Of a DNA stretch of 64,000 bases, positions 25,551 to 59,510 are shown piece by piece. The number at the start of each line of letters is the position of its first letter. The first letter of the stretch is position 1. A program made the position numbers and the translations under genes. Under the pieces are notes generated by a model. That model saw only the letters and a program-made list of their open reading frames with translations. It was not told where the DNA came from and ran no database searches. The stretch comes from Hydractinia symbiolongicarpus (taxonomy: Eukaryota > Cnidaria > Hydrozoa > Anthoathecata > Hydractiniidae), in NCBI RefSeq assembly GCF_029227915.1, contig NC_079875.1, positions 18,345,001 through 18,409,000 on the forward strand, written 5' to 3'.

Positions 25551-25800
25551 ACAAGTAAGGTTAATATGGTTAAAAATTTCGTTTTTAAGAACTTTTTAAA
25601 GATTCTTATGCTTCAAAATACGTGTTTTAAAGAAAGTTTCGGTATGACATTGCCAGAGCTGATGTTCTTGTTGTAACAAGTAAGGTTAATATGGTTAAAA
25701 ATTTCGTTTTTAAGAACTTTTTAAAGATTCTTATGCTTCAAAATACGTGTTTTAAAGAAAGTTTCGGTGTGACATTGCCAGAGCTGATATTCTTGTTGTA
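25551..25800. repeat. Tandem duplication, 2 x 125 bp
   Basis: Copies at 25551-25675 and 25676-25800 differ at about two positions (GGTATGAC versus GGTGTGAC; GATGTTC versus GATATTC). The near identity indicates a recent local duplication. Confidence 0.95.
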
Positions 25801-27159: not shown

Positions 27160-30100
27160 TTACACTTTGACATAAACTTCTGTTGTGTTTTTTCCACCTC
27201 CGATTGGTGGAAGAGGAGGGGTGTCTCCACGAAAGCTCGATGCTGTACTCACTTCGCCATTTTTAATTAGAAATCGGTGGCCGTTGATAAAGTCATCGAT
27301 AAGATCATATCCGGCAAAGTTATTCATAACTATCTTTGAACTTGGGCATTCAGGTAATTTCTTTGATTCAAACTGCTCTCCGTAGGACGTCTTGTTGGCA
27401 AATGGTTTCTTTGTATCAAATATTTCATGTTCCCGTTTTATCATCTGTGCAGGAGCGACGTTTTGTTGTTTGTAGTTATCTTTGCTCTCTGTTGTCGAGT
27501 CGAATGGAACATTGGACGAGTAGTAATCTCTACTGCGCTGAGTTTTATGTCGTGGTGAGATTTGATGTTTGACGTAACCGTCGGCGTACGACGTCACGCC
27601 GTCAAATTCATCACCGAAATTGACATTTGTCTTCGGCCGTAATGATTTTGCCGCGCCACGCCGTCCGAAATTTTTGTAATCGTCTGATGTCTTTTGCATA
27701 TCCATGGCGGCCGACGGGGGTCTGTATACGTCTTGGTCTCGTTTAGCCACATTTCTTTGCACCTGCCAGTGTTTGTATGTGGCACCATGTGTGGTTTCAT
27801 CGTCTAACTGCTGATCAGAGTTAAACAGGCCGTTGTCGTATTTGACAGGATGTGATTTCGACGCATTTTTGTGGTGCTTATAGTCCGTCTGCACAATTGA
27901 TTGTCCAGAAAACGGTTGGTTGTTAGGTATATATTCAGTTTTCCACCCTATAAAGAACATAGGTGATTAAAAAGTAAAGCCGAAGGAAGGTCGAAGGTCG
28001 GATCTTCGCAACCTTGTTTCAAGGTCTCTTGTCTTTTCGACATTTATACTGGCGGCGAAGAAAGCTCTGGTACATGCTGCTGAGCTGTTTAAAGCGATTT
28101 ACATTCAGCATAGACGATTTATTCGTGCTTAGCGTTATAAGTCAAAAGTTGCAAAAAGGGTATATTTGGGTTTGAAGGTTGTTTCGCTTTCGCTTTGAAG
28201 TTGATCTGGCTTTGGAGAAATTTGCTAATTTAAGTCGTTGTCAAGCTATTTTGACCCAAAGTAAAAAAGATAAAAAAGCATGTATTTTTTCAGGTTGGAC
28301 AGGAGGAAGAAAGTTTGTATCAAAATTGTTTGAGGATTTAAATTTCGCGAAAAGCGATTTTAAAAATTTTTTTACATACCTTTGGATGATCTTGGTCTCT
28401 GAGTATGTTTCACAAAGTGTTCATGATGTGTTGTTTCAAACTGTCCAGGTCCTATAAAGAAAAAAAACGCAGGTTTTTTAATGCCTCGGACGGAAGAGTC
28501 CCATTGTACAACGCTCATTAATATGAAAAAGTGTTATTTATTCCGCGAAAAAGTAAAACAACGAAAGCAGATTTTAAAATCACCTTTTCCATCCAAGTTA
28601 TCAGCTCGCCTTGGCACAATGTGAGATCTATCTCCATACAGGCCTTGATAATCTGCTTGGTGCGTCGACTTTTCGTCCATTGGAGCATTTGAAAGCGTGT
28701 GATTATCACGTAACTTGTAAAGATGTGGCCTCGGGTTGAGGCCTTTATTTTCATAGTCTTCGTGCGTGACAGATTTACCTTTTAATTCCTCCTCATTCCC
28801 AAAGGGTTGAGTTTTCTTTTTAAAATATTGCGGAAGAGGAGCGACTTGTCCCTTCCCTTTTAAGTATTTTGTTCCATATTCTGTACTCAGATCCATCGGC
28901 TCTTCTCTTTTAACGTATTGCTCGGTTGGTCGGTGATCAACGCGTGGTTGATGCTCATGAGCATGAAAGTTCTCCTTATGGCTAGTGATGTAATCTCCAT
29001 CACCATCATGCTTAAGGTTATCCTGAGGACGATTGACAATAATACGTTCTCCTTTGCTGGTCTTATAACCCTCTTGGTATTCTGATAAAGCACATGGTCC
29101 TTTGTTTGTAACTTGTGGTCTTGTTGGCATGTAGTGTGGACAGCGATGTTTGCTAAAGCAAATAAAACAGCTATTTATATACCTTTCATAATGGATTCGA
29201 AAAATGTTTAAGAGGCCCTGATTTTAGCAGATGCCTAGAATTACCAGCATAATGTATAAAATCTGACTCTCAATTTCAGTACTTGTTTTGTGGAGGTCAT
29301 TTCAGGCACCGTATAAGTACTGAATGTGTTAACTTTTGCCAGTTTGTTAGTATTATTGCACGTAAAGGAAACACCATACATACATAAATACAGAACAACA
29401 CAAAGATATTCTTTCATAAACATTTTCACTGCTGGGTTTATTTGTTTAGACTTAAGTAAGAAACAAATATTAAAAAGTATTACTAATTTTATAGAAAATA
29501 TTTATACATAAGAAACAAGTTGGAACTTCCCACTTAATAAATGGTAATAAAAAATGCAAAAAATACGATCTGAGATTAAGTTTATAATTTATGCGATATT
29601 GGTACTTGTCTAGTATATCCTTAATTTGAAGTGTGTTTTATTAAATTGTCTGCTCAAGTTTTAAATGGATGACTGACTGATGTTTTAGCTTATAATTTCA
29701 ATAGAGTAATTCAATCTAAGGTATGGTTAGACGGCTAAGTTTCAGGAGTTGTTTAAATCTAAATACTTCGTAAAGTATAAATTACCGCCCGAATACTTCT
29801 TGAATCAAGAAATTAGGGCGAATGCTTGACACAGTTTTATGAATTGGATAAAAAATATAAAATTGTTTTAAAAAAACGTGCGGTGCATTATATAAATAAT
29901 TTACTGGTGTTTAATTCACACAAACTTCAATCAGTGTTCTTCTTTAAATTATGTATAGTTGGTATGGAAGCATAGTAAAAAACAAAATCATAAAATAGAG
30001 CACTAGTCACATAAATTTTCCACAACTTCTGTTAAAAAAATGCTCATTATTATCAGTTCCCTGTTGTACGAAATTTGACCTAACAGTCCATCCTTTGTCA

Positions 30101-33069
30101 GGAAAAAATTATAAAAACAAAAGAATAATTAGCAGATAGCCAATCAAATTAAGATATTTTTCTTGTTCCTCTCTGATCTGATCCAATCCGAATTGATATT
30201 GAGTGGAAATACAGCTTTTAAAAACGTGTGAGCTTTCTATTTTAAAAACCTGAAACTTAACATGCACAAGTTAATTAAGCTTCTAAGGATTAAGTTTTGG
30301 AGGTAGAATAATTGCAGGGACCTATACAAAAGTGTTAGTTAGTTAACAAGTGGAGGATGCTTAACTTCTACACTATACAATGTCCAAAGAACTCATTTTC
30401 AAAGGGTCACAATGTATAAGATAATGTTAGACTTCTAATACAAAGTTTAATAGTTATTTAACAAATTTTCTTTAAGATATTCACATTTAAAGATATACAG
30501 GTTTAATCAAACTGCATATCAAATTGGGACATTCGTATTTCAACTCAACCAATGTATAGATATTATAAACGTGCATTGATTGGAATTACTTTTTTGTTGT
30601 TCTTGTTGCCAAAATGACACTCAAGTAAGGGGTCTCTTTGAGAAACGACAGAAAAGTGAATTTCCTCCACTTGTCTCATAAAATCTGACACCTAGTTCAG
30701 TCTGTGAGTTGAGAACTAAAACGGTCTAGCTCAGATTGAAAAAAGGTAATTAATATAAACATAAAAATAGGCGATTGGCTAAGAATGATAATGATGACAA
30801 TCATTTTCTCACCCCAGGTCTTTTAAATGTTCGCTGACAAGTAATTAACATCAACCAATATCTCACCACATGTTTAGATTGAAGTAAGCATACATATATT
30901 TCAGAACTATATTCACTTCAATATCAGCTCAAAAACTTTATATATAAATAGTACAAATATATTACAACAGCTATTTATGGAGCTAAAATTTGCAGTTTCT
31001 ATAGGTTGACGGCTGGTTGGATAAAGTTAACGCACTATCTTCAGTTCACTTTTGTTTCTACACTTCAATATCTGGCCTTAGTTAGCCAGATCATTGTGTG
31101 CCCAGTGTCATGGCTCTCATTTCCAGTTGTTTCTGTTTACTAGTTAATTTGAACTCCAGATTAAATTGAGCTACTTTACCTGCTAGACAATAAACAATAA
31201 TTCCCCTACCTAGCTACTTATTAGAGATGTGCATATTTTACATGGCTAGCCTCACAAATATCGAGGGATATACCCTGTCTATTATTTCCAGGAGGGGCCA
31301 TGGGGTAGATGGAGAGTCCTAGAGTATTTAATGCTCATTTTGAGCTACGCAGACCCAATTAGAGCCGGGGCTCTACTAGACAACTCCTGGCAACATCCAA
31401 CGGCCCACACAGTGTGCCATCTTCCCAATTTCCCTCACATGGCTTGGGTTAACCCGGGGCTATGGTAACATTCACTCGCCCATGTTGAATCGCCGTCAAG
31501 AGGAATCGAACCCCGGTCTCCCGCACAGAGTACGAGAGCTATAACCACTATTCTACGGCGCCACCAATTGTATATAGATCTTCCTGAGCAGTTTACCTTA
31601 ATTTTTTATTACTACATTCAATGCAACTGGCTTGGTTAATAACATTATGCTGGTTTAATGGCATTCCTCTTCACAACACAACCTTGATCTATATAAGGAT
31701 TTGAATTTTCTTCACCTGTAAACCTGTGCAATTACTTTAGCCACACATTTTTGGGGGGCTGGTTCAGTTTTGGTTCAGTGAATTTAAAGGTATCTGCCAA
31801 ATGGTGGAAGAAAGCCAAGTTGGTGCAGAGTTGCGACATTTTATGATGAGAAAAGTTAATGTGAGACTCATATCATTTCATAGGATATGTTTGTGTGAGA
31901 TTTGTGACCATGATAATATGATACTAATAAAATGCAATGTGAGATAGTTGGTGTGAAACTTATTTATATCTTGGAGCCACTCGCATATCCATTTCTCTCA
32001 GGCTTTGACTTAGTTCTGACGCTAATTCTAGAGCCCTCCTTCTTTGAATCAGAGCCCTTAAATACCCTATTCTATAAATTTTGAACATCCTGTCTTCTTT
32101 TTTTAATGAACATAAAACACAATAACGCTGTGTATAGGTGATTTTGAACATCCTGTCTTCTTTTTTTAATGAACATAAAACACAATAACGCTGTGTATAG
32201 GTGATGAAACACAAAGATATCTACTATATAGCTATACAAAAAAAATATTTTTGTACGAAAATCAGTTTTAAAATATAAACTATAAATTTTGTAAAAAAAA
32301 TGTATACAACTAAAATAACAATTTTCTCCTTTATTTCAATGTAATTGCAGTTGGCTTGTTGGCTAGCTGCAATGTTTTCTATGTTCCTTTTTTGAATTTT
32401 GGAATTGATTTCATTTTCCATTTAGTATTCACTTGTTATGACAAAAACAATAAGAAAAATCAATATGTGAGTTGCTCCTCCCCTCTCTCTCTCTACATTT
32501 AGTTTTGCCCTTAAATTTTGTAGCTATAATGATCCAGCTCAAATAACACAGATGGTGGCTTTCTTCTGGTTTCATTGACAACATTAAAAGACCAGAGTGG
32601 TTTCATGTGTTTTTTGTCAAGTAATTTTGTAGTTCTCAGGGCTACACATTGGTGAGCTTAGTGATTGTGCAGGAGATAGGGGTTTAATCCCCGTTTGGCT
32701 ACAATTTAATATGGTTCAAATAATGTTACTACAGCCCTGGGTTGAACCAAGCCATGTGGGGGAAATTTTGGGGATGGTACAGGGAGTTATCTGGTAGAGA
32801 GGCAGTGGCAGACCCTCTAATTGGGTTTGCATAGCTTAAAATGAGGATAAAACACTCTATGACTACCCATCTAAGCCATATCCCCTCCTGAAAAATATAG
32901 GTAGATAGGATATATCCCTTATATTTTGAGACTAGCAATGTAAAATATGCACGTCTATCTACATAAAATAGCTCAGAGGGCTGCAGTTCAGCGTCTCTCT
33001 AGGAAGTAAGTAGGAAAGAAGTATGAAGAAAACTTACCCACAACGACATATTTGACATATGCACTTCAT
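27160..33069 (-). CDS. SAXO1: SAXO1-like stabiliser of axonemal microtubules, four exons, 486 aa
   Basis: Predicted microtubule-binding protein of cilia, basal bodies or centrioles (SAXO/FAM154 family). Coding exons on the minus strand are 33038-33069, 28584-29152, 28380-28451 and 27160-27947, all with GT-AG borders and compatible phases. The 32-nt first exon plus the next gives MKCICQICRCGKHRCPHY, the conserved Cys-rich SAXO start, followed by the MPTRP and ALSEYQEGY signatures. Then come repeated Mn-type modules, each with a Thr/Ser-Tyr core and a basic Pro tail: DLSTEYGTKYL, THEDYENKGLNPRP, THQADYQGLYG, TTHHEHFVKHTQRPRS (the whole 72-nt exon), TTHGATYKHW, KTSDDYKNFG, TTESKDNYKQQNVAP and KTSYGEQF. 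The length is close to vertebrate SAXO1 (about 474 aa). Intron 1 (about 3.9 kb) holds two family-2 SINEs and a 63-bp tandem repeat. SAXO2 is an alternative paralogue label. Confidence 0.92.
31224..31565 (-). repeat. SINE family 2, copy with tRNA-like head, in SAXO intron 1
   Basis: On the minus strand the head carries an A box TAGTGGTTATAGC (31539-31551) and a B box GGGGTTCGATTCC (31502-31514). The body is shared with the copies at 17738 and 32637. The head is well kept, so this may be the least decayed copy in the window. Confidence 0.88.
32078..32203. repeat. Tandem duplication, 2 x 63 bp
   Basis: Two essentially identical adjacent 63-bp units (32078-32140, 32141-32203) start ATTTTGAACATCCTG and end TGTATAGGTG. 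The open frame across it is a repeat artefact. Confidence 0.93.
32637..32966 (+). repeat. SINE family 2, plus-strand copy in SAXO intron 1
   Basis: The head has a degenerate A box (GCTTAGTGATTGTGC) and a B-box-like GGTTTAATCCCC. The body shares 'gccatgtgggggaaat', 'gttatctggtagag' and 'catctaagccatatcccctcctg' with the other copies. It is more diverged than the 31224 copy. Confidence 0.82.
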
Positions 33070-37656: not shown

Positions 37657-40641
37657 ATGGAGGAACCTCTGGATGATCTCAAAAAGCAAATCACTACCCT
37701 AACAGAAATTGGCCATAAAACATTGGCGAATGGTTCCCCAGATGAAGCAAGCGAAATATTTCGACATGTTTGTAATTTAGCTGAGCAAACAAAAGATGAC
37801 TTTATGAGACGAGGTTGTTATTTCAATCTTGGGGCATGTTATGTAGCTTGCCAGCAATCAAAGTTGGGACTAAAATACCTTGAACAGGCCATTCCACCTG
37901 ACGGTGTGGATGATGGAATAGAGAATTATGCGGACCTGTGGTATAACATTGGTATTGCTAATCATGCTCTTGGAAATATAGACAAAGCTGTTGTTGGATA
38001 CGAAAAAGCACAGATCTCCTACCATGAGCTGTCTGCAAAACGTTTGGAAGGAGGATGTCTGTGTAAACTGGCAGTGTGTTATCATTTAAAATATCGCTTG
38101 AAAGACACATACGACATGTACGTTAAATCTCAGGAAATATACAATGAACTTGGTGATAAAAACAGCCAGGCCTTAAGTTTAGTGAGTGCAACAGGCGTGT
38201 TGTCTGAGATTGGTGACATTGACGGTTGTGCCAAATTGTTGGATCAACTCTTAGATGTGTGTCAAGAAATCGAGGACAAGCATTTACAAGGTATACTGAC
38301 TTTATAAAATTATCTATATTTTTAATTTTGTTAAAAACAATCTTTAAAGCTAGCCTTTTACTCAAAAATATATATACTTTAATAGATAAATAGATATACT
38401 TTTACTGGTAATGTCTTAAAATTGATAACAATCTGGACGATAGATATAAAATATTACCCCTCTTGATAAAACAGGTTAGCATTTTACGGTAAGCAGTTTT
38501 TGTTAAGAACGAAGCATATTATCCGGGTTTGAGACTGTGTTGCTAAATTTTACAAACTTATAACTTGGGCAGTTGCTTTAACTTTCAGCCAAATTTCAAA
38601 CCTACAAACTGTTTAAGAATACGACAAAGAGTTATTTCCTGAACCATATCAATATGTAACTTGCCTTCCATCAATCTTTTTGTTTTCTTCAAAAAAAGGC
38701 CTTATTTGAAAATATTTCTGGGGGCATTTAATGGGGCAATCAATGACTTATTAACCCTAAATGCGGGTCTATACGAATATATATAGTACCTCTGTCTCGC
38801 AAGGACCACACTGTGTTCAGTCCAACACCAACAACATTGTCATATCAATTTTATTTTTTCTCTTCTTTTTTTTTTTTATTTGTTTGTATTTATTTACACT
38901 TACCGTGCTATTTGTTTACTTTTATTACTTACTCCCTATTTTCTTTTAGCAAAGATCTACCATGATATTGGCTTATTATATATTTCTGAAAAACTTTACG
39001 AGTCAGCAGCAGAGTGTTTCGAGCAAGCCTTAAAATGTTTGGAACAAGCTCTCGTCATAGACAAATCCCTAAAAGCTACGATTATGCAAAATATCGGTGC
39101 CACTTGTAATTACTTGATGCTTTATGATCGCGCCATCACCTTTCATCAATTTGCGGCTGATCTCTACGGTGAGTACCTTATTGGAATTATTTTTTTGCAG
39201 ATTTCGCGAATCGACACGTAATTCGCAAAATTTGATCGCAGTTATAAAATGTGTTTTTGGCTAATTCGCGAAAATACATTATCGTGAACAGCTTTATTGT
39301 TTAAAATTAATCTTCGTTAAAACCTACCTATAAGATAAATGTCAAGTATTTAGAAATTCTTAGTTAGCTATAACTCAACATTTTTAAACGATGTATTGAC
39401 GAAATTAATTTCCCGCAAAATATTTTCATTTTTACTAATTAATACACCTTTCCCAAATTAGTTTTCTTTGATGGTGAAATCTTCAGATTCATACAACAAA
39501 CAAACAACCTGTTACAACAGGTTTTTTAATTTAATTTTAATTTTTTTAATTTAACTCTGCTTAAAACCGAGGCTTATTAGTGGAAGCAGAAAATTAAGAA
39601 CATGTTGACCGTAATATTAATACCACCAAAGCAGCATTTTCACTCCAAATTTTACACACAACAATCCAATGATGTTAAGTATGATCCTAAAATCAAAACA
39701 TCAAAATTCTAAAATTTTAAAAAACATATAATTCGGGAAACGTGTATTGAAATAAATAAATAAATGTCGCGAATGGCGCACATTGCGAAAACTTCATACA
39801 TTAAGGTATATTCTGCCGCTTTATTTTAGGTGAGGTTGGTGACAGGAAAGCTCAAACACAAGTGTTTTGCAATTTAGCCTTCGCACAAACGAAAAAAGAA
39901 AGTTACAATGAAGCTATCGCTTCATTTCAACATGCCGTGCAAGCAGCAAAAGATTGCGGAGACAAAGAGTCGCAGTGTCTAGCTACGGAAGGATTAGCTG
40001 CGATTTATTTTCGCCAGAAAAACTACGAGAGAGCGATTTCGTTTTACAAGGATTCCTTAAGTTTATTGTCGTTGTCAAAAGAAAAAGACTCAAAACATGC
40101 TGATCGAATCGTCGATAAACTTGCCGATGCACTACAATCAAGTTTACGTGATGAAGTGGAAAGCAGAGAGCGGCGATTTGATTCACCTGTCAAACACAAG
40201 GTTGTAATAAAACAGAGTCGTCCAAGAATTTCTCGAGAACACACACAGTATTCTTTGATTGCGAAAGGTTTAGAAGAAATTAGTTCCGTAGAAGACTCTT
40301 CCGAACAGGATAGCAACGAAAGTTTAGACGAAACGGAGAGTAACCAAGACGAGGAGAGCACGTATATAATCCAGAACGACGAGAAACAAAATAGATATAT
40401 TAACGAAGAGTACTTGGAAGAAAATATACATCAACAGAATGGAGTCCATTTTAGTACGAAAAGTGCTCTTAATCGTTATACCCACGAACAACCAAAGGAC
40501 TACGAAGACGACGACGTTCCACGGGCTGATAAAGAATATTATTTAGCAGTAGTCGCGCAAAAGCAGGCTGAAAGACAAAAAGAAGCCTCTGCTAAAGTTG
40601 ATCATCCAAAGGAGCCGTCAAAAATGTGCTGTGTAATGTAA
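37657..40641 (+). CDS. TTC24: TTC24-like tetratricopeptide repeat protein, three exons, 554 aa
   Basis: Probable orthologue of TTC24, a TPR scaffold of poorly known function. Coding exons are 37657-38290, 38950-39168 and 39830-40641, with GT-AG borders and matching phases (one nucleotide left over at each junction). TPR motifs run through about residues 10-365. They include FNLGACYVACQQSKLGLKYL, WYNIGIANHALGNIDKAVVG, IYHDIGLLYISEKLYESAAE, NIGATCNYLMLYDRAITFHQ, FCNLAFAQTKKESYNEAIAS and GLAAIYFRQKNYERAISFYK, ending with the KLADALQSSL helix. This order matches my memory of vertebrate TTC24. An acidic disordered tail follows (SSEQDSNESLDETESNQDEE). The last four residues CCVM form a CaaX box, so the protein may be prenylated and membrane-bound. 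The ATG has a good context (TAAATGG). An acceptor-like CATTATCCAG lies just upstream and may mark a 5' UTR splice or trans-splice site. Confidence 0.88.
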
Positions 40642-46830: not shown

Positions 46831-47120
46831 TCATCCGTAAAAACATTTCCCACAAAATGAAACTTTTTGAAATCACTCATCCACAAAAATATTTTCCACA
46901 CAATGAAGCATATTGAGATCATTATCCACAAATAAGTTCCCCACAATATAAAACATATGGGATCACTCATCCACAAATATGTTCTCCACAATATAAAACA
47001 TATGGGATCACGCATCCACAAATATGTTCTCCATAATATAAAACATATGGGATCACTCATCCACAAATATGTTCTCCACAATATAAAACATATGGGATCA
47101 CTCATCCCCAAATATGTTTG
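46831..47120. repeat. Minisatellite, 45-bp unit, about 6-7 copies
   Basis: The unit contains ATCCACAAATATGTTCTCC and ends CATATGGGATCACTC. The central copies are near identical and the outer ones more diverged. Because 45 is divisible by 3 it stays open on the minus strand (repeating MSDPICFILWRTYLW), but there is no other sign of a gene. Confidence 0.93.
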
Positions 47121-48494: not shown

Positions 48495-51400
48495 CTAGTT
48501 TAAGCATAACACTTGTATATATTGTTTTGCCACAGGCGAGTTTACAATGACGTTAATGACTTCAATTCTAAACTTCTCGTACTTTTTTTGCTCGCCTTGT
48601 CTTATCAAGTTTTGTCTTGTGTTAATAAACGCATCGATGTATTGCAGAGATTTGTTGGTGACGTAGTGAAGATTATTACTTTGAAGGTATATCTTACCAA
48701 CATAACGTACACATGGCAAAACCGCCCACACATGTGAATCAGTGAGTTGACACGATGTTAGATCCAATATTTCCAAAAAATATGCTTGCATCTCTTCAGT
48801 GTGCTCAATAATACTGTTTGATATCGTTTGAAGAGCCCTAGCGCTGAACGATACGTCGCCGACAACAAGCTTCTCAAGCCCAGACAAGTCTAACTCTAGT
48901 AGGTCTTCATAAGTAAACAAACACTTGCTGATATCCAGGCTTTTCAAACGAGTGCTGTTATTGTTGGAATACGAATTTGAAATCATTGCTAACGTGCTAG
49001 CACTGAGTTGATCGTTACCACTTAAGCAAAGTTCATGTAGACAATACAGCATTGGTTGCAAACAACTTATATGTTCATCTGCCAAATTGCACGATGCTAT
49101 GAATAAACACACTAGATTACATATTCCTCTCCTTCCAATTTCTTCAATAACGGCTTCACACAATGCCGTCATTCCGTCGCAGGTAAAATCGACATTTCTA
49201 CTGATACTCAGCAATTGTAGATGTGGTATACAAGGCTTTAAAGCGACAAGATGAGCGTCAGTTAGACTACATTGATCCAGGTGCAGAATTTTCAAGGTGC
49301 ATTCACCTTTGATAAAGATACAATTTGTTAAGCTAGTTGCTATTGATTGCATTGCCAGTGAAGACATGTGCTCGTTGCAGCTAATGTTCAGAAGTTTGAT
49401 GCTTGGTAAGCACATGGTCAGCATGTCAATATCGTCATCATTTAAACTGAAGTCTGCGAAACAGCATTCAAGCTTCAGTCTAAGATTTTCCACAGGTTTA
49501 TCGTTAACGATGAGTTGATGTCTGTAAGCGTCTGCTAGCATGCTAAGGTGGAAGAATTTAATCCGGTGATTACCTGCGTTCAGATTCGGAATCTTATAGC
49601 GTATCTTATTCTTCAATTGATTCATTTCATTCGTGTAGTTGAGTAAATGATGAAATGCTTTATAGGCAGATTCTACTTGACAGTGCAATTGTATTACATC
49701 AACTACACAAAATGTTTCCAACAGCAGCCGATTTTGATATAACTTGGAAATTAGACCGGAAATCTCGATTGTTCGACAGGAGTCTTCCACGTTTTCTTGG
49801 CATGTAATTAAGACTTCGTCTGTTCGGTTTGTAGTTACTGATGACGATATTTTGAGGATCTTCTGACATGGGTAAGCTGAATAATACATCGTAAATAGAG
49901 TAACTAAATTTTCTGGCAGTTCATTGTGACCAGTAGTTTGAATGTGCAGAAAATCAACTTTAGCTCCATCCAATTTATTGATGAAATAGATCGTGCTTCT
50001 TACCTCATGATGAAGCGATGCACCTCGAATGTGAAATGACTTATTTGAAAACTTTCTTTGAAAAAAGGATGAAAATTCCCCTTGATATTCAAAAATAGCG
50101 GCCAGCAGGTGGTCACAAGAGCTATCCAACACTAGGCAGCTTCCATTTAACTTTCTCAGCATAACTCCTTCTATAAATTGCATAACATTAACGCGGAACA
50201 ATCTATCTGGAAAACATTCACACATCAAATTCATTTTCTCCTCCTCCATTTTCTTCTTTTTTGCATAATTCTTTAGATTACTTAAAAAACAGGTTGTGAT
50301 GTCGTTCTGATTTCCTTTGCCATGGATTCCAGAAAGTCCAGCAAGAAGTGGTACACATCCTGAAAAATTAGGCATTCGAATTGCGTTAGCTATTGCTCGT
50401 GGGTTAAGAAATACGTGAAGCGCGGTAAAGTATTCCTGCAAAACAAGATGTTTGAACTGATACACTGGTCTACTACCGTCAGGCGGTGTTTTCTTAATAA
50501 GAAGTCCCGCCCTTTCTAAGGAGTTTATCGAATCAGTAACATCTACATCAGCATCCGAGAACGACGTCTTGTTGAGCCTTAGCGACACTTCCGAAAGTTT
50601 TGCAAGAGACGTTGCTGTGTGTAAAATGAGGTCTTTCTTGCACATCTGAAAACAATCTAAATACGTGAATTCTGGGGAAAGACTCCTAGTGAATTCTAAA
50701 AAAGCAGTAGAACATAGTTGTGTAATTGTGTGGGGGTTGTTCATATCTGTACGCTGGTCAAACATCTCGCATATAACCCAAAGATAAAACGGGATTCTCG
50801 CCATTATTTGTAAATCTTTTCGTTCTCTTATTTGTCTTGTCACCAGATTGATCCGATCGTTGTTACCATGGAAACGCTTTTGTATATATGAATCAATAGC
50901 TTCGGAATTGAAACCATGGACCTCAATTGTTTTTGGAACCACATGTCTAAATTTAAAAGCTATCATGGAACATGTTGAGGGTCTTCCTGTAACCACAGTT
51001 TTATGGCCACGTAAAAAGCTGGACTGGTTATTCACTATGTCACCAAGGTAATTCGGAATAACAGGTTGAAAAACGTTGCCAGCTGAAAATAGGTGAATAG
51101 ATTTTATTTCGTCCACTCCATCCACGACAAACAGAACGCGATGCGATACCTCTTGCAAATCTTGGATATCTATCATATCAAACAGATCAGTGAACTTTTT
51201 ACGGATGAATTTCTTAGGTAATTTATACTGGAAGGTACCTGCAATTAAGTCTTCACTTTTAAGGTAAAATATAAAATCGATTTTGGGGAATTCATTTAAA
51301 ATATTCCCTTTCGCCCAGTTATATACATATGTATCCATAAAGGTGCTCTTCCCGATCCCTGCCAATCCTCGTAAAATGACCAAATCATCACCCTTTTTCA

Positions 51401-52033
51401 ATAAATCTTGAATTAGAACTGTTTGAAGTCGGTTAAATGTTGACTGCTGTTCTGAATCATTTTGTGGATTCTCAACCATAGATAGAGGCACATAAACTTC
51501 TTCTCGAGGTTTCTGTACACCTCGGTCTTGGCACAAAGGCTTATCCAAAAACATACTTGATAAGCTTTCGCTGTATTTTTCTCTTAGCTTCAAAGACGCC
51601 TTTCTTAAGCCTAGAGATAAAGAAGATGATGAGATAAACGAACAAACGAGCGATTAAAAATGACACTATTCTCAAAGTGGAGGCAATTTTCTTATTAATA
51701 ATTTTAGGGGTGGGTGACTTAACCGAATATTTACGGTAAATAAATAAATCATACAACACTTACCAGTTGTGATAAGACTTTCCATTCGAATACAATCGAC
51801 TATATCCTCTCGAGAAATTTTTATCAGGATATTTTTCACTTCACTCCACGTGAAAGTTGCATTCTTTTTGCGGAAGCTTATGTCCATCTTTTGTTCTTCA
51901 GTGACTTGTAAGTTTTCGATATTTTTAATTTCGTCAGGTGTTAATAGAAATTTGGACAACTGAGCCCAATCTTTCCCGATCTTTTTGCATATTATATTCA
52001 ATACCTCCGGTAAAATGACATGATAAGGGTTAC
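48495..52033 (-). CDS. NLR receptor: Death domain exon plus NACHT-LRR exon
   Basis: Predicted cytoplasmic NOD-like innate immune receptor. The Death exon (51764-52033) follows a strong acceptor (TTTTTTTCAG) and encodes a Death fold with IICKKIGKDWAQLSKFL and TWSEVKNILIKI, closing with REDIVDCI. It joins in phase (donor GTAAGT) to exon 48495-51610. That exon has a Walker A GLAGIGKST (51341-51368), a Walker B VLFVVDGVDEI, a GRPS sensor motif and the NACHT-associated HGFNSEAIDSYIQ, then a winged-helix-like region. The last third holds LRRs such as LKILHLDQCSLTDAHL, LQLLSISRN and FLEILDLTSCQLTDSHV. The stop is TAG at 48495. The Death exon has no start codon and needs one upstream nucleotide. The HEPN exon at 58763-59510 supplies exactly that, so both are probably one gene of 1377 residues. 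In that numbering Walker A is at about 421-429 and the LRRs at about 1040-1375. Confidence 0.93.
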
Positions 52034-52621
52034 CTGAAAAAAATAATTCATCAACAGATTCAAAGGTAGTACCTAGTTCTTAATTTTAATTCTTATATTC
52101 TTATACTGTTTTTAGAAGAATCTCAACGTCAACGTTCTTATAGAGTAGATTCTTAAGTGACGTGCAGTAAAAACAAAAAAACACATGTTAAGAGCAAATA
52201 TTGCATTGCATGTAGCTAATAACTTTTACGCGATGTTCGTAGAGTTTTAATAGTTGCTTCTTGCTCATGTTCGAATAATACATTATACAAATTAGCTGAC
52301 TATTACTCTGATGCTGATGCGTTTAAAATGTTGCATGTTTGAAATAGCTAAAATAGTTTATAGCGTTTGCTGTTAGTTTGTTTAAATATACACCTGCTGA
52401 AAAAAGGTATACTTCAAAAAATTGATCTTTTTGATATATTTTAATCTTAGTACATGTTTGCTTATTGCGTAACCTTTCCGAACTCATAACGGAAAATATC
52501 TTCTAAAACAAAGGGTTCTCCACATAAGGTAAATAATACATAGCCCGCAAGATTAGTATTGATAAAGCGACGTAAGTGGCTATATTTGTCCCTTTTGGAG
52601 ATTTTTGACGTCACTATCTCT

Positions 52622-52729
52622 CATGTATAATATTAAGCAGATATTCAGCAGGCGGAGTCGAATATGAAAAAGCGAGACTGAATAATTACGATATCCGATT
52701 TTACTGCGCTGAATATCTGTTTTATCATG
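52622..52729. mobile_element. Possible short MITE in the NLR intron
   Basis: CATG-AT-rich-AGCAGATATTCAGC at the left is mirrored at the right by GCTGAATATCTGTTTTATCATG. The match is interrupted by small gaps, and no target duplication was assigned. Confidence 0.4.
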
Positions 52730-52999
52730 CAACTAATGAGACTACAAAAACAATTCATTTTGTTTCACACAATCAGCAATTTTTGTCTTTTTCGTTGTTC
52801 TTGTTTCTTGTTGTTCTAAAACATTCGCGCTTCAGTTATTTTCAGCTCTCCACCTGATTGCTTATCTTTTGTGTACTACTATCGAGAACAATAAAAGATG
52901 GAGTGCGATATAATACATCCTTTGTTTGATAACTTTTTTATTTTTAATTAGTTTAACTCTCCATCTGATTGACTTGCATGTAATTTTATAAAGGAACTA

Positions 53000-53497
53000 C
53001 AGTTGACACCTCTCCATAATTCGAATTCCCACTGGGAGAGATTTTTGTTCCAATTATAGAGAGATTCGAATTAGAGAAAGTCTCTGTAATTCGAACTTTC
53101 AGCTTCAGAAAGTGCAAATTCGACTTACAGAGAGAAATTACGTTATTTCAAAATCAAGAAAACATAATTCAAGTTTCATTCAATCTTTTTTTTCATAGTT
53201 TACATTGGAGAAACGATCTCTTTCGACAATACGAGTTGCATTACCAAGTGCTTTTCTCAGGTCGATAAATTGAATTTGTCAAAGCCCTGTTTACACTCTA
53301 AAATTCGAATTAGGGAGAGAATCGTGCTGAAGGGACTGAAAAACTGTTCGAATTAGAGAAAGTTTCGAATTAGAGAAATTCGAATTGTAGAAAGTTTTTT
53401 ATAAGGGTCTGTTAAGGAAAATTGACGGTGACTGAGCACTCGTTCGAATTATAGAAATATTTGAATTATAGAGATTCGAATTAGAGGGAGTCAACTG
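53000..53497. mobile_element. pogo/Tigger-like MITE, 498 bp
   Basis: It is flanked by TA (52998-52999, 53498-53499). The left end is CAGTTGACACCTCTCCATAA; the right end read inward is CAGTTGACTCCCTCTAATTC, followed by GAATC. Copies of an AATTCGAATTAGAGA-type word recur near both ends. It is non-coding and lies in the proposed large NLR intron, next to the GINGER-like element. Confidence 0.85.
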
Positions 53498-54479
53498 TAA
53501 ATATATAAACGAAATATAAGTGCCGCTGTCGCCGTAAATTTTAACTCCCCTAAATAATGATTCTTAAGTCATAATAAACTAGTTTATAATAACCCCCTAA
53601 TTAAGATAAACTAGTTATAAATAACACCCCAGTCATAATAAACTAGTGAATTGTTACCCCCTAGAGTCAACATTTCCTATGAAATAATAACTCCCCCAGT
53701 TTATTTTGACTCCCTTATATTTCTTTTTGGATAGAACGGTAAAAGGTTGGTTCAGTTACTAAATATTATATGACCAAAATTTTAGCCGACTTTTTGTACC
53801 CGATCAAGATCTTTCCCCGAACTTTTTGCCTTAACTAAAAAATTTGTGAGCAAACTTTTTTTGAACTGCTTTGAACTGAAAATAAAAATAGAAGGTTTTG
53901 AGTGATTTAAAAGATCTAGTCGGAAAGAATTTACCGATTTTCAAAGTTAATCGGCGGGAAGTGACAAACCTTGCTGTTAAAAAAACATGACTACAGAATA
54001 TAAATTTCAGTAGATAAGAATCTTTTTTTCGAAATCCTAGCAAAGTAACTAATTAATAAAAAACGGAAAGAATAAAGGCACTGTACCGTAAGGTAAAGAT
54101 AATCTGCCTTTTATTTATAAATCCTAAAAAAAGTGAAAAATTGATAGAAATAGTGAAAAACATAACAAAGGTTTTTTAGAATGAGGCTAAGACCAAAATA
54201 AAAAAAAATCTCTTGGTAATTTGTGATGCTTTTTATAAAAGAGTTGTTTAGTGTGTATTTTTAGTACAAAAGTAATATGAGAAAAATCCTTCTAATAAAT
54301 AAAAGAGATCAAAAAATGTTGTAGAATACAAAAGAATGAAAACTTCAAATGTGCTCATAGATATAGAAACTAAAATAACGTCAAAGTGGGTTAACCCTAA
54401 GGAAAATTGTTTTTTTTTTCTGGTACCTTTCAAGACTCACTAAGTATGTACCTAAATAAAACTTAAGTTAACAACGCCA

Positions 54480-54960
54480 GAAAGTGTTTTAAAATCTCGA
54501 TTATCAATTCACTACCTTTGGATCAGGGTCTACTGTTCAAGACATAACATGGGGTGATTCCTCATGTTAGCAATATTAAACACTGCTTCCATTGGTGAAT
54601 TATCATCAAGATCTCTGCTGCGAAAGCGATAGCGAAGACTCCGTAATTGAATCCATTCTGTTGCTTTTGCTCGGATAGAAATGTTCGGGCAATATTTTGA
54701 AATTCACCAACTACATGCTTATACAATGAATAGATGGATTTCTTAGAAACACGATTTCAAACTATCGCAAATCTGAATCCGACCTCTTCGAACCTCTGTC
54801 GTGTAACAGTTGAATGTGGTCTTGGTATACAGGATCAAAAGGGATGGCAGTGTTCTTGTGAGTATTCAAAACAGATAGTTATCTTTTGTGTTTTGCATAT
54901 TAATTTCTGCGCGGCATCCATGATCATTTAACCAAGCACTTTTCGAGTTAAGGATTTCCC
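54480..54960 (-). pseudogene. C48/Ulp1-like cysteine protease remnant of the transposon
   Basis: Minus-strand frames give SIYSLYKHVVGEFQNI, then EQKQQNGFNYGVFAIAFA (about 54620-54670) and, in another frame, MRNHPMLCLEQ (54533-54565). This order matches the C-terminal protease-like module that accompanies integrases in related invertebrate elements, where the active-site Cys sits in a Q-x-G-x-DCG-VF-IA context. Here the Asp-Cys pair reads Asn-Tyr (AAT TAC), so the catalytic Cys is lost. Stops and frameshifts interrupt the rest. Assignment rests on motif recognition only. Confidence 0.6.
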
Positions 54961-55429
54961 TATCTTCAATATTGAGAAAATATTAATCGTTTTTTATCCA
55001 AAACTTTTCTCGGCTCCCCTTTTTGATATCTGACTCAATTGGTTGGTTATCTTTGATTAGGATAGGGTTTGTTATTTTGTCCATTCCGAACCTGATACAT
55101 AGAATTACTTTTTGGCTCTAGTAAAGCCAAGATGACTTCCATTTCTGACTGTTCACTATGTATTTAATTTTCTTTAATACCCCAGAATGCGCTTATAATA
55201 ATTTTGTAAGCTTTCGGGTGCTTATTTTGACTTTTCCATTATATCTCTTTAATTCATTCCGTGTGTTTTTCAGTAAATAACAAATGTAATTGGGTAGCTC
55301 TCGATCGTTCCTTCTTACAAGGATTTCTTTGAAACGATGGCATGTCAGAAATATAATTTAACGATGTGAGGGATTATGTCGAAGTTGTACAAGGATTATC
55401 TCTACTATTTCATAGGGTGACAGATTCCA

Positions 55430-56967
55430 CCTGTTTGGCTTATACTAGCTGACATTTTGTCATCGTGAAACAGGGGCAGTTTGTCTTCATTGTCTTGGGT
55501 CGGCGATGGTTCTGGCGCATCATCGTGATGGGGCGGTAATGGTCCGGGCTCAAGATCATGGCCCAGTGATGGTTCGGGTTCAACGTCATGGGGCGTAATG
55601 GTTTGTGTTCATCGTCATGCGATGGCAACGGTTCGGGCTCGTCATCATGGGGTGGCGATGTTTCAGCTTCATCGTCAGGCTGATTCGAAGATCAAGACAT
55701 GACTTAAGGAGGCCAGCATTGTACTTTTTAGCTAGTACACAACCACGCTTATTCTTTAACGCGCCCAAACCAGTCTTAGAAATGCTCTCCAATGTATATG
55801 GCCTCAACTATTTAAATGTTAACTCTCCTCCTTTTCTATCAATCCTTGATTATTAAAGTGGTTGCTAACAAATGGCGACGGCTGTTGTCATGTTGTTGTT
55901 TCTTCTGTGCTGCTGTGGTATTTTTGCTTGCTTCGTCGTTGGTATCTTGTGTCAATTTCAACGTTGATGGCAGGATAGTTTCAAACTCTTCCGAGTCAAG
56001 CGGAATATCTGAATTCTGTAAGTCTGAATCTAAATCGTACTTTAAATCGATTGGTAGAATTGGATGCCTATTATACATTAAAAAGAACGGAGTGAATTTG
56101 AATGAAGAGTGTTTACTCACTTTGTGTGCAAACAAAATACACCTTCAATTACATAAGGCCATTCATCTGCCCGTTCGTTCAAAACTTTCACCAGCCAGTG
56201 CTTGATGGTTCAACGAGCCAATGGTTTGAGAATGGTATGCAGACGTTATTCTTTGATCTGCACCAGTCATTTCATGCGAATTCGTTATCACTTCGTTAAC
56301 GAATTCCTTTCTCTGGTCATTGATTTGAATTTTCATGCGACTATGCCTACAAATAACCTCCTACAGGAATGTAGCAATTTTTTCAGCTGATTTGTCTTTC
56401 ACTGGCTTAGCTTCGGACCATTTCGAAAAATAATCAATGCAAACGATAAAATTCAGCAATGTCATTCAACATATTGTGCCCCAAAAAATCTTCCTGCACA
56501 TTTTTGGTAGGTGGCATCTCTTCCACGATGTGAAGCCATTGCCTGGGCTTTGTTGTGGTTTCCGAGGCCTTCATGGATATCTTGGATGATTTTTGTCCAT
56601 TCCTCTCGTGATGTGATTACTTCCACCGACAGGTGAAAAATTTCGACAAGCACGGCGAAAATTTTCTTTTTGAAGGAATTTTGTTTTTATAAAATTTGCA
56701 GTAAAACTTAAAAAATGATTAGCTATGGTTAGTTCATTCCACTTTTTGGAATCAAGTTTTCAAGTCATTAAAACAAAACTATAAAAATATCCCCTTCAAA
56801 ATAGCAACTCACATGTTCACCTTTTTTAAAAATAAGTCAGAACTCAAAATAAGAGTTGTCATGAAATGGGGAAAAAAGACAAACTAACCTTAGAATCCAT
56901 CTGGATATTTTTTGGTTTCCAAATATACTTTAATTTCACTAAGTGGCACATGTTGTTTGGCAGGCAT
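55430..56967 (-). pseudogene. Integrase (rve, DDE) remnant of the GINGER-like transposon
   Basis: The putative start is at 56967 (MPAKQHVPLSEIKVYL, then YPDGF). A donor-like AAG-GTTAGT follows shortly, so the gene probably had an intron. Next, at 56470-56650, is half of a zinc-binding domain (QDIHEGLGNHNKAQAMASHR, then GRDATYQKC). The Cys pair is missing, suggesting an internal deletion. The integrase core follows: CIDYFSKWSEAKPV (first Asp, about 56400-56450), QINDQRKEFVN (second Asp), a SAYHSQ segment with a frameshift around the expected Glu, and then FTPFFLMYNRHPILPID (about 56040-56100). A GPY/F-like piece, GPYTLESISKTGLGALKNKR in related elements, survives here as RPYTLESISKTGLGALKNKR (55740-55805). 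A degenerate Asp/Glu/Pro/His repeat closes it (55440-55680). Stops and frameshifts make it non-functional. Confidence 0.82.
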
Positions 56968-57264
56968 TTTCAATAAGAAAAAATTGTGTGAATATTTTGC
57001 TCACAACAACCGAACAACTCACGTGAAACAAAACAAAACAAAACAAAACATTTTAATATATTAGGTATACTGCAATGACTTCAAAATAGGGCGAGTTTTC
57101 AATAACCAGTTTATTTTAACTTTGCCTTTAAAGTTCTCTTTGAAAAATAAGGGGAGTGTTTATTAACTGGGGGAGTGATTATTTACTAGGTTATTTCTAT
57201 TCTATGGGAGTTATTACTCTCTAGTTTATTTTGACCTTAGGAGTCATCTTTTACAGAGAGTTAA

Positions 57265-58676
57265 GATAATCTGCTACACCGGAATTACTGTCGAATATCT
57301 CGAGCATATATTTGATATCGGATATCTGCTGACATGTTCAACTCTCGGCTAACGACTGCACGAATATCTAAAAATAATCCGTCAGACGCTCCCGCTAGAG
57401 GCGCATGATAATAACTATTATTTCTGCTTGTGGAGCAGACATTTTAGTTGATTGATAAAGTCTATATTTCCATGAAGGGAATTTCCCGTAAACAAAGAAT
57501 TTAGATGTGTAGGAAATTTTTCACATACAATAATGCGATCAAATGCTCGGATTAAAATGAAATTTTATGATGGCATAATATGAACAAAAACTTTTGTTGA
57601 AGTAATTTATCTATCAACAAAGTTTTTTTGATTTTATCTTTTTGTCAACACTTCATAGCTGTTTCAAGCAAAATCGCTCTCCTGCCTATGATACAACCAA
57701 GACGTATGATATACGCAAACAACCTCGCCAAAAAAGTGTATAAAAAGCTGAAGTTAGACACGACATATTTTGCTATTCGGATAGGCAATAATATTGATAG
57801 AAAATTTCTCGAAATTTCAATTTTCGTTAGGTCAGTCTGTAAACACGTCCTCGCGGGCGAGATAGTAAGAAGAAGAAAAAAGTAAAAATAGTTACCAAGA
57901 TGAGATTCGAACACACGACTACTCCCGTGTCGGTGCTCAGAGAGGCAAAAATTTCCATTCTTGTAGGACACATTTGCGTTTTAATACAAGCTCACGAGCT
58001 TGTAATAAGTTCGTTACTAGGTCTCTTGATATTTTCCTTACAGGAACACACAATTTGTAAACAAATTCCTTCAAGTGCTTTTTGCTTCATTTAAAAGTAA
58101 TTTGTACACGCACACGCATTGCTGCTTGATGCTGATCATGCACGTATTTTTTGTGACCTGCTTTGTTGTGTTTTTAGTGAAGAAATATGAATAAATATGC
58201 GCTTAAATTTTTCTCAAAGTTTTTTTCAAAAAATAATATTTGTTTGTATATAGTTTTAAAAATGTCCGGGCAGAGTTTCCCATATGGCTGTTGCGAAAAT
58301 AAATATGTTTAAGAACCTTGGCTAGCTCATATGCTTTACGCTAAAAAAAATTCATTTAGACTGTTGTTTTGCGAGCTAGTTTACGTCAATGATACGTCTT
58401 GTTCAATTTTGTTTACGCCTTTGTATATGACATTGTAATAACGATCTCAGTATGAAAAAACCCAAGGCGATGTCCAAGCCACCATTTTGATAAAGAGTGA
58501 AACAACAGAGTGTATGTGTTATGTATAGAAAGTTTGCTTCTATTAAAATTTTGTTTACCTTATTTTCTTAACCAGTCTTTTCTGAGATTCCTTCAAAAGA
58601 AAAATTCTTTCCTACGGTAAATAAGCGTTATTTCATGTTTCCACTTTTCCCTACCTGTTTCTCAACATCAAAGTTA
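57265..58676. other. Intronic or intergenic sequence with a degenerate tRNA-like patch
   Basis: On the minus strand, 57890-57960 contains GTGTTCGAATCTC, a B-box-like sequence, but no closed cloverleaf, so it is probably a SINE remnant. An 85-codon plus-strand frame (57628-57885) resembles nothing I recognise. If the HEPN-NLR gene model is right, all of this lies in its first intron. Confidence 0.4.
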
Positions 58677-58762
58677 TCATTTTTTAAAGCCATTAAATTT
58701 TAAAAAACATCGGAAGACATTAGCTGCCGATTTATTTTCTCCGAGATAAACTGTCAACTTAC

Positions 58763-59510
58763 AATGTTTTTTGATCTCCTGTTCATTTCGTTGTTTCACA
58801 TCTTCAAGCGTTTTTCTAACCTCCTCATATTTTTTTTCCAACTTATTGTGATCGTCGTCATGATCGTCCACGCGTTGTTTCAGCGAGTCAGCCGCCTGTT
58901 GCAAAATGTCATTTTTTTGTATAAGCAATTGCACTTGTTGATTTAAATAGGGATCCAGTGAACCAAGTTCCAGTCGTTGTAAAAATGGAAAATCGTTATA
59001 ATGAAGTCCACCCAATATAAATCTGATTTTATTCCAGTACATTTGAAATGCATGTCTCGTTGAAATTTGCGATATACTGCCGTGCTTTACTTCATGTCTA
59101 AGCAGCTTTGCATGCAAACAAAAAGCGGCTATACTTTGATCCGTTGAAAGAGGTTGACGGATGTCCCAATGCTTTGGTGGTGCAGGAGCTGGTAATCCTG
59201 GCAAACAATATTCAATGAGGATAACAATGATGGGTATATCAAAGTTTTGCGAATTTGTTTTACCGTTTTGTGGACATATAACAAGCCACTGATCAGGCCG
59301 TAAAATGCGATTTAACTTTCTTTGATGGGTTGATTTAAATTTGGCCATTGCTCCATGTAGTGCAGCGTCATTTCTTGGCAAACCCACATAAGTTCGATGA
59401 CAAATTTCATTATGAAGAATTCTTAAAAGAGCATCTTTCACGCATAACTCTAACGCTAGGTCTACCCGCATATAAAATTCCCATGGAGCGACAGGTCTCG
59501 ATAAAGCCAT
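58763..59510 (-). CDS. DZIP3-like HEPN domain plus coiled coil, probable first exon of the NLR gene
   Basis: The ATG at 59510 starts 249 codons plus one nucleotide, then a consensus donor (GTAAGT). Residues about 14-170 match the DZIP3-type HEPN domain: alternating helices, then LNRILRPDQWLVICP, NFDIPIIVILIEYCLPGL, PPKHWD and TDQSIAAFCLHAKLLRHEVK, with the HEPN signature R138-x4-H143, and MYWNKIRFILGGL. HEPN domains with this motif can be RNases or act as binding modules; which applies here is unknown. Residues about 195-249 form a charged coiled coil (NKLEKKYEEVRKTLEDVKQR). The frame can run on past the donor to 58677, but that tail looks like intron. The unpaired T fits the Death-exon acceptor at 52033 (T+GT = Cys250). 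A separate short HEPN gene with other 3' exons is the alternative. Confidence 0.85.

Follow-up and report, generated by a model that had tools for sequence, protein, structure and literature searches.

Does the minus strand of Hydractinia symbiolongicarpus contig NC_079875.1 encode a single NLR gene that joins a HEPN domain to a Death-like domain, a NACHT domain and leucine-rich repeats (LRRs), or do these parts belong to two adjacent genes? The locus lies at 48495-59510 of the window, which is the whole stretch analysed here (64,000 nucleotides (nt), forward-strand positions 18,345,001 to 18,409,000 of assembly GCF_029227915.1), and all coordinates below refer to that stretch. The initial annotation, made from the letters alone, had proposed one gene with the order HEPN, coiled coil, Death, NACHT and LRR. 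In one close relative, a public protein designated P0001, all five parts are carried on one transcript, as judged from its contig sequence, and we regard a three-exon gene structure in the window as nearly certain.

Gene structure

The exons and introns of the model were as follows.

58763..59510, minus strand: exon 1, with the start codon, the HEPN domain and the coiled coil (open frame and donor)
52034..58762, minus strand: intron 1, 6729 nt, GTAAGT...TTTTTTTCAG
51764..52033, minus strand: exon 2, coding for the Death-like domain (residues 250-339 and one further nucleotide)
51611..51763, minus strand: intron 2, 153 nt, GTAAGT...TTATCTCTAG, untranslated in P0001
48495..51610, minus strand: exon 3, with NACHT, the winged-helix region, LRR and the stop codon, matched by P0001

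The three exons spanned 11,016 nt of genomic sequence, and joined together (748 + 270 + 3116 = 4134 nt) they gave 1377 codons and a stop with no internal stop codon. Both introns began with the donor GTAAGT (starting at 58762 and 51763 on the minus strand) and ended with the acceptor sequences TTTTTTTCAG in intron 1 and TTATCTCTAG in intron 2. The last nucleotide of exon 1 was the first of the split codon C250, and the split codons C250 and G340 fitted at the exon 1/2 and exon 2/3 junctions, respectively. Exon 3 sat inside a stop-to-stop frame of 1052 codons. The coordinates, phases and total length that had been claimed for the minus-strand model were thus borne out by the sequence, the splice consensus and the open joined frame.

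A protein search with the joined product scored 7988 candidates, of which three (P0001, P0002 and P0003) reached E 0.001 or better. P0001, a protein of 1376 residues whose 90% cluster has 14 member sequences and whose one contig measures 4330 nt, aligned with 100% of the query at 93% identity, and its alignment showed no gap at either of the two exon junctions. Translated alignment (tblastn) to the window placed residues 1-251 of P0001 on exon 1 and residues 252-1376 on exons 2 and 3, with its extra first methionine aligned to the codon immediately before the window ATG. Since the contig holds a 4.1-kb frame in 4330 nt, the 6.7 kb of intron 1 cannot fit in it, and because the introns are absent the contig is apparently a spliced cDNA. 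The check across the 58763/52033 junction, foreseen as a cDNA experiment, was approximated with this public contig, which ran continuously across both junctions and bore out the single gene and its order of domains, giving the model firmer support than the letters of the window could give by themselves. A missing coding exon was considered and rejected, as the window exons cover P0001 fully and none seems to be lacking.

The identity between P0001 and the joined product was counted in six sections, whose boundaries were our own choice. It amounted to 169/181 in the HEPN part, 87/90 in the Death exon, 246/261 in the NACHT part, 376/400 in the part following NACHT and 356/377 in the LRR part; the coil, with 54 of 75 columns identical when gaps were counted, was the fastest-diverging section and the Death exon the best conserved. 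The other two matches, P0002 and P0003, were NACHT-LRR proteins (E 1e-4 and 9.1e-4). They aligned with 24 and 28% of the query at identities of 22 and 23%, respectively, and each had a sub-cut-off Death match. Residues 1-190 of P0001 used as query found P0001 itself as the sole match (349 candidates, E 10). Apart from P0004, a HEPN-only protein described below, the searches with the joined product, with P0001 1-190 and with exon 1 plus its read-through found no HEPN joined to other exons and no Death exon joined to another 5' exon. No second copy of the gene was seen in the window, where the remaining tblastn pieces of P0001 and P0004 had E values of 0.58 or worse.

Domains of the predicted protein

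The following domains and motifs were located in the exons.

58995..59363, minus strand: HEPN_DZIP3 domain, residues 50-172 (Pfam PF18738, E 2.8e-15)
59082..59099, minus strand: R138-x4-H143, candidate HEPN RNase motif (motif scan)
58767..58934, minus strand: coiled coil, residues 193-248, eight uninterrupted heptads (heptad pattern)
50868..51383, minus strand: NACHT NTPase domain (Pfam PF05729, E 2.6e-17, 63.6 bits against a cut-off of 26.7)
51345..51368, minus strand: Walker A, GLAGIGKS (motif scan)
51108..51137, minus strand: Walker B, VLFVVDGVDE (motif scan)
50430..50456, minus strand: FKHLVLQEY (motif scan)
48675..49400, minus strand: LRR region with LxxLxLxxC-type repeats (motif patterns; Pfam LRR_4 below cut-off)

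The profile search that had been suggested for HEPN_DZIP3 and NACHT placed both above their curated cut-offs, with PF18738 scoring 56.8 bits in the window product and 50.3 bits in P0001 against a cut-off of 27; the NACHT profile was matched in P0001 as well. The motif R138-x4-H143 was intact, as first noticed, and identical in the window, P0001 and P0004. A bare Rx4-6H motif is weak evidence because two more such strings, at residues 46 and 163, occur within the first 250 residues; the weight of the candidate motif would come from its location within the Pfam match and from its conservation. The structure model of the HEPN domain (mean predicted local distance difference test (pLDDT) 44.3) was too poor for judging an active site. 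Among solved structures, exon 1 matched two chains of prefoldin (E 2.2 and 2.4), both over the coil. No PADLOC anti-phage model matched exon 1 at E 1, and P0001 matched DruC1 alone, at E 0.13.

In the coil, 11 of the 16 “a” and “d” positions were apolar, as were 5 of the 40 other positions, a pattern reached by 8 of 20000 shuffles of a stretch that had been picked by eye beforehand. The corresponding stretch of P0001 had 12/16 and 6/40 (4 of 20000 shuffles), and a scan of the whole protein likewise placed the best stretch of 56 residues here, starting at residue 189. All four sub-cut-off matches to NCBIfam lay over the coil, and exon 2 was without any match. Compared with the window, P0001 lacked one 7-residue unit and had another, so that the 56 residues and the register were kept. 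Because both length differences are whole heptads and fall in the fastest-diverging section, the alignment suggests, from two events only, that the register is held by selection.

The domain encoded by exon 2 is called Death-like here because the Pfam Death profile (PF00531) scored below its curated cut-off (E 0.02, 15.4 bits against 22.6); in P0001 it was not listed at E 0.5. The best PDB sequence match of exon 2 was the Death domain of FADD (E 0.014). Its structure model, for which P0002 and P0003 served as alignment rows, had six helices with a pLDDT of 71.6, and the nearest chains were Death folds with weak scores. The LRR_4 profile also stayed below its cut-off (E 0.0039, 17.8 bits against 27), and the repeat patterns matched 4 times in the whole protein in the strict form and 9 times in residues 1001-1377 in the loose form. 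The Death and LRR assignments of the initial annotation stand as probable by resemblance of fold and motif, but not by the curated sequence cut-offs. We take FKHLVLQEY to resemble the winged-helix histidine motif of NLRs.

Intron 1 and the read-through form

The frame of exon 1 stayed open beyond its donor.

58677..58762, minus strand: open read-through, in which the exon 1 frame continues for 27 codons into intron 1; a possible HEPN-only form

The statement that the HEPN exon had no acceptable 3' continuation nearby needed to be divided. Its splicing part may hold, but the frame itself runs 27 codons past the donor. P0004 (286 residues, 3 member sequences, a contig of 2068 nt) likewise extends past the exon 1 donor, and was the sole match of a query of exon 1 plus the read-through (577 candidates). 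In exon 1, 223 of 243 aligned residues were identical between the window and P0004; in the read-through the figure was 20/27, with one 9-residue gap, and both ended in KK and a stop. P0001 and P0004 agreed in 248 of 250 exon 1 residues and are therefore probably from one gene or an allele pair. In the scanned stretch of intron 1 (57000-58676), polyA-like signals were present at 57985, 57230, 57164, 57115 and 57057.

Intron 1 also contained diverged inverted repeats at 53563-53714 and 57152-57240, with arms 72-78% complementary and about 3.4-3.6 kb apart, reminiscent of the termini of an old mobile element. Between 53000 and 53500 lay short repeats of the TTCGAATTATAGAGA type in either orientation, and the intron had tandem repeats as well; the intron repeats are probably mobile-element remnants. 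Two short minus-strand frames at 55842-56144 and 56166-56360, which presumably resemble a retroelement integrase, had no Pfam match at E 0.01.

Proposed mechanism and alternatives

HEPN RNases require the pairing of HEPN domains. In the mechanism proposed here, the LRRs would hold the protein in a closed state; once a ligand or danger signal is bound, NACHT would swap its nucleotide and oligomerise. The coil and the Death-like fold might help to align the N-termini, so that the HEPN domains could pair and R138 and H143 cleave cellular or invader RNA, and the infected cell would arrest or die. Among the mechanisms weighed, this pairing of RNase HEPN domains through NACHT-driven clustering appears the most likely, and we give it about an even chance. 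Taking structure and mechanism jointly, we somewhat favour one animal NLR gene that belongs to the DZIP3-type HEPN-NACHT class and acts by a clustering-RNase mechanism.

The same gene could also work with a HEPN domain that is not catalytic, acting as an RNA-binding or adaptor module, while the Death-like domain relays the output to FADD-like adaptors and caspases. The closeness of exon 2 to FADD among solved sequences and its rank as the best-conserved section both agree with this, and HEPN domains without the motif are in some cases probably just RNA binders, according to the part of PMC3710099 used here. The argument against it is that such domains lack the motif, which all three sequences carry intact as R138-x4-H143; we consider a non-catalytic HEPN possible but less probable than the RNase. 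If the locus held two adjacent genes, a HEPN-coil gene of 277 residues ending in the read-through would be followed by a Death-NACHT-LRR gene whose own 5' exon would have escaped notice; the HEPN-only P0004 and the long, repeat-bearing intron 1 would suit this arrangement. The two-gene reading was rejected on P0001, whose single contig encodes every part in one frame, and we find it hardly credible, given also the near-identity of P0001 and P0004 in exon 1 and the drop in identity from exon 1 to the read-through.

P0004 could instead point to one gene with two products. Beside the full-length sensor, retention of intron 1 would yield a short HEPN-coil protein, which could pair with the sensor and brake it. 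The frame that is open in both the window and the relative, their common ending and the polyA-like signals speak for two products; against them, an open stretch of 27 codons is expected by chance at about 0.19 at the stop frequency of the intron, and the contig of P0004 may be genomic DNA or pre-mRNA. The read-through looks like an intron with its frame open by chance, in genomic or unspliced sequence, and a second product seems unlikely. A wider scheme would combine these elements in one oligomer with two outputs, a ligand-gated HEPN-pairing RNase and a Death-fold platform, in which the read-through HEPN-coil protein would pair through the same heptads and set the RNase threshold, and the gain or loss of heptads would tune pairing between paralogues; we hold this to be very unlikely.

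Other features of the window

On the plus strand, 37657-40641 probably holds a TPR-repeat gene of several exons; both of the two pieces scanned matched TPR_12 with E about 5e-10. Two minus-strand frames at 27160-29223 matched SAXO1-2, a stabiliser of axonemal microtubules, with E 4.7e-10 and 2.3e-6. A tandem array at 46872-47118 had 5.5 copies of a 45-nt unit (89% matches) and one open frame per strand. The two-copy tandem repeats at 25551-25800 (125 nt, 98%) and 32078-32205 (63 nt, 100%) were recent duplications or assembly effects. No tRNA genes were found in the 64,000-nt window.

Comparison with known systems

The NACHT core was shared by sequence with the vertebrate proteins NLRP6, NLRP3 and NLRP1 (P0001 against PDB chains, E 2.6e-10 to 7.7e-6). 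Vertebrate NLRs carry N-terminal PYD or CARD adaptors in place of HEPN.

HEPN-bearing relatives were described in five papers. In the DZIP3/hRUL138 HEPN family the Rx4-6H motif is “mostly conserved”, and across animal lineages the domain is fused to TPR, Zn-ribbon, RING, Ankyrin, CARD, NACHT ATPase, DEATH and LRR partners; Nematostella, oyster and Capsaspora have lineage-specific expansions of the family (PMC3710099, 2013). These fusions share with the present gene the Pfam HEPN family, the partner domains and the retained Rx4-6H, but the table lists partners without an exact order or an eight-heptad coil. The same source describes fusions of CXorf38-family HEPN domains to NACHT and DEATH, found in cephalochordates and cnidarians; these proteins were proposed to degrade cellular RNA in the manner of RNase L or to attack viral RNA, and a likeness to bacterial HEPN-STAND proteins was pointed out (PMC3710099). 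The idea of HEPN, NACHT and Death is the same there, although the HEPN family differs. The functional logic of the initial annotation, in which HEPN modules are gathered on activation, is plausible, and a similar logic was printed in 2013 (PMC3710099).

Anthozoan expansions of DZIP3-HEPN-NACHT proteins number 17 to 83 per species, and HEPN_DZIP3 is, LRR aside, the commonest NACHT partner in nine of the surveyed cnidarians and in most of the anthozoans there (PMC8260672). HEPN_DZIP3 and NACHT are common to those proteins and the present one; the number that also have Death is not stated in the part of that paper used. The pearl oyster has more than 50 NACHT proteins with an N-terminal HEPN, and of its 202 DZIP3-family HEPN proteins 194 have Rx4-6H and 131 have Rx4H (PMC9646362). 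As in the present gene, an N-terminal HEPN, there mostly with Rx4-6H, stands beside NACHT. Many N-terminal DZIP3-like HEPN domains are reported in coral NLRs (PMC10236652), and in marine animals HEPN occurs alongside Death-like and TRADD-N domains (PMC8195603). The exact order with the eight-heptad coil was not found spelled out in the available text of these five papers, figures and supplementary tables aside, and in that text the RNase function of HEPN-NACHT proteins was read from motif and domain company rather than from assay. The domain combination has already been described in other animals, and the gene is a well-supported, ordinary member of a little-tested family. With three exons, intact Rx4H and Walker motifs and coil differences of whole heptads, it lends itself well to testing whether animal NLRs can themselves function as nucleases.

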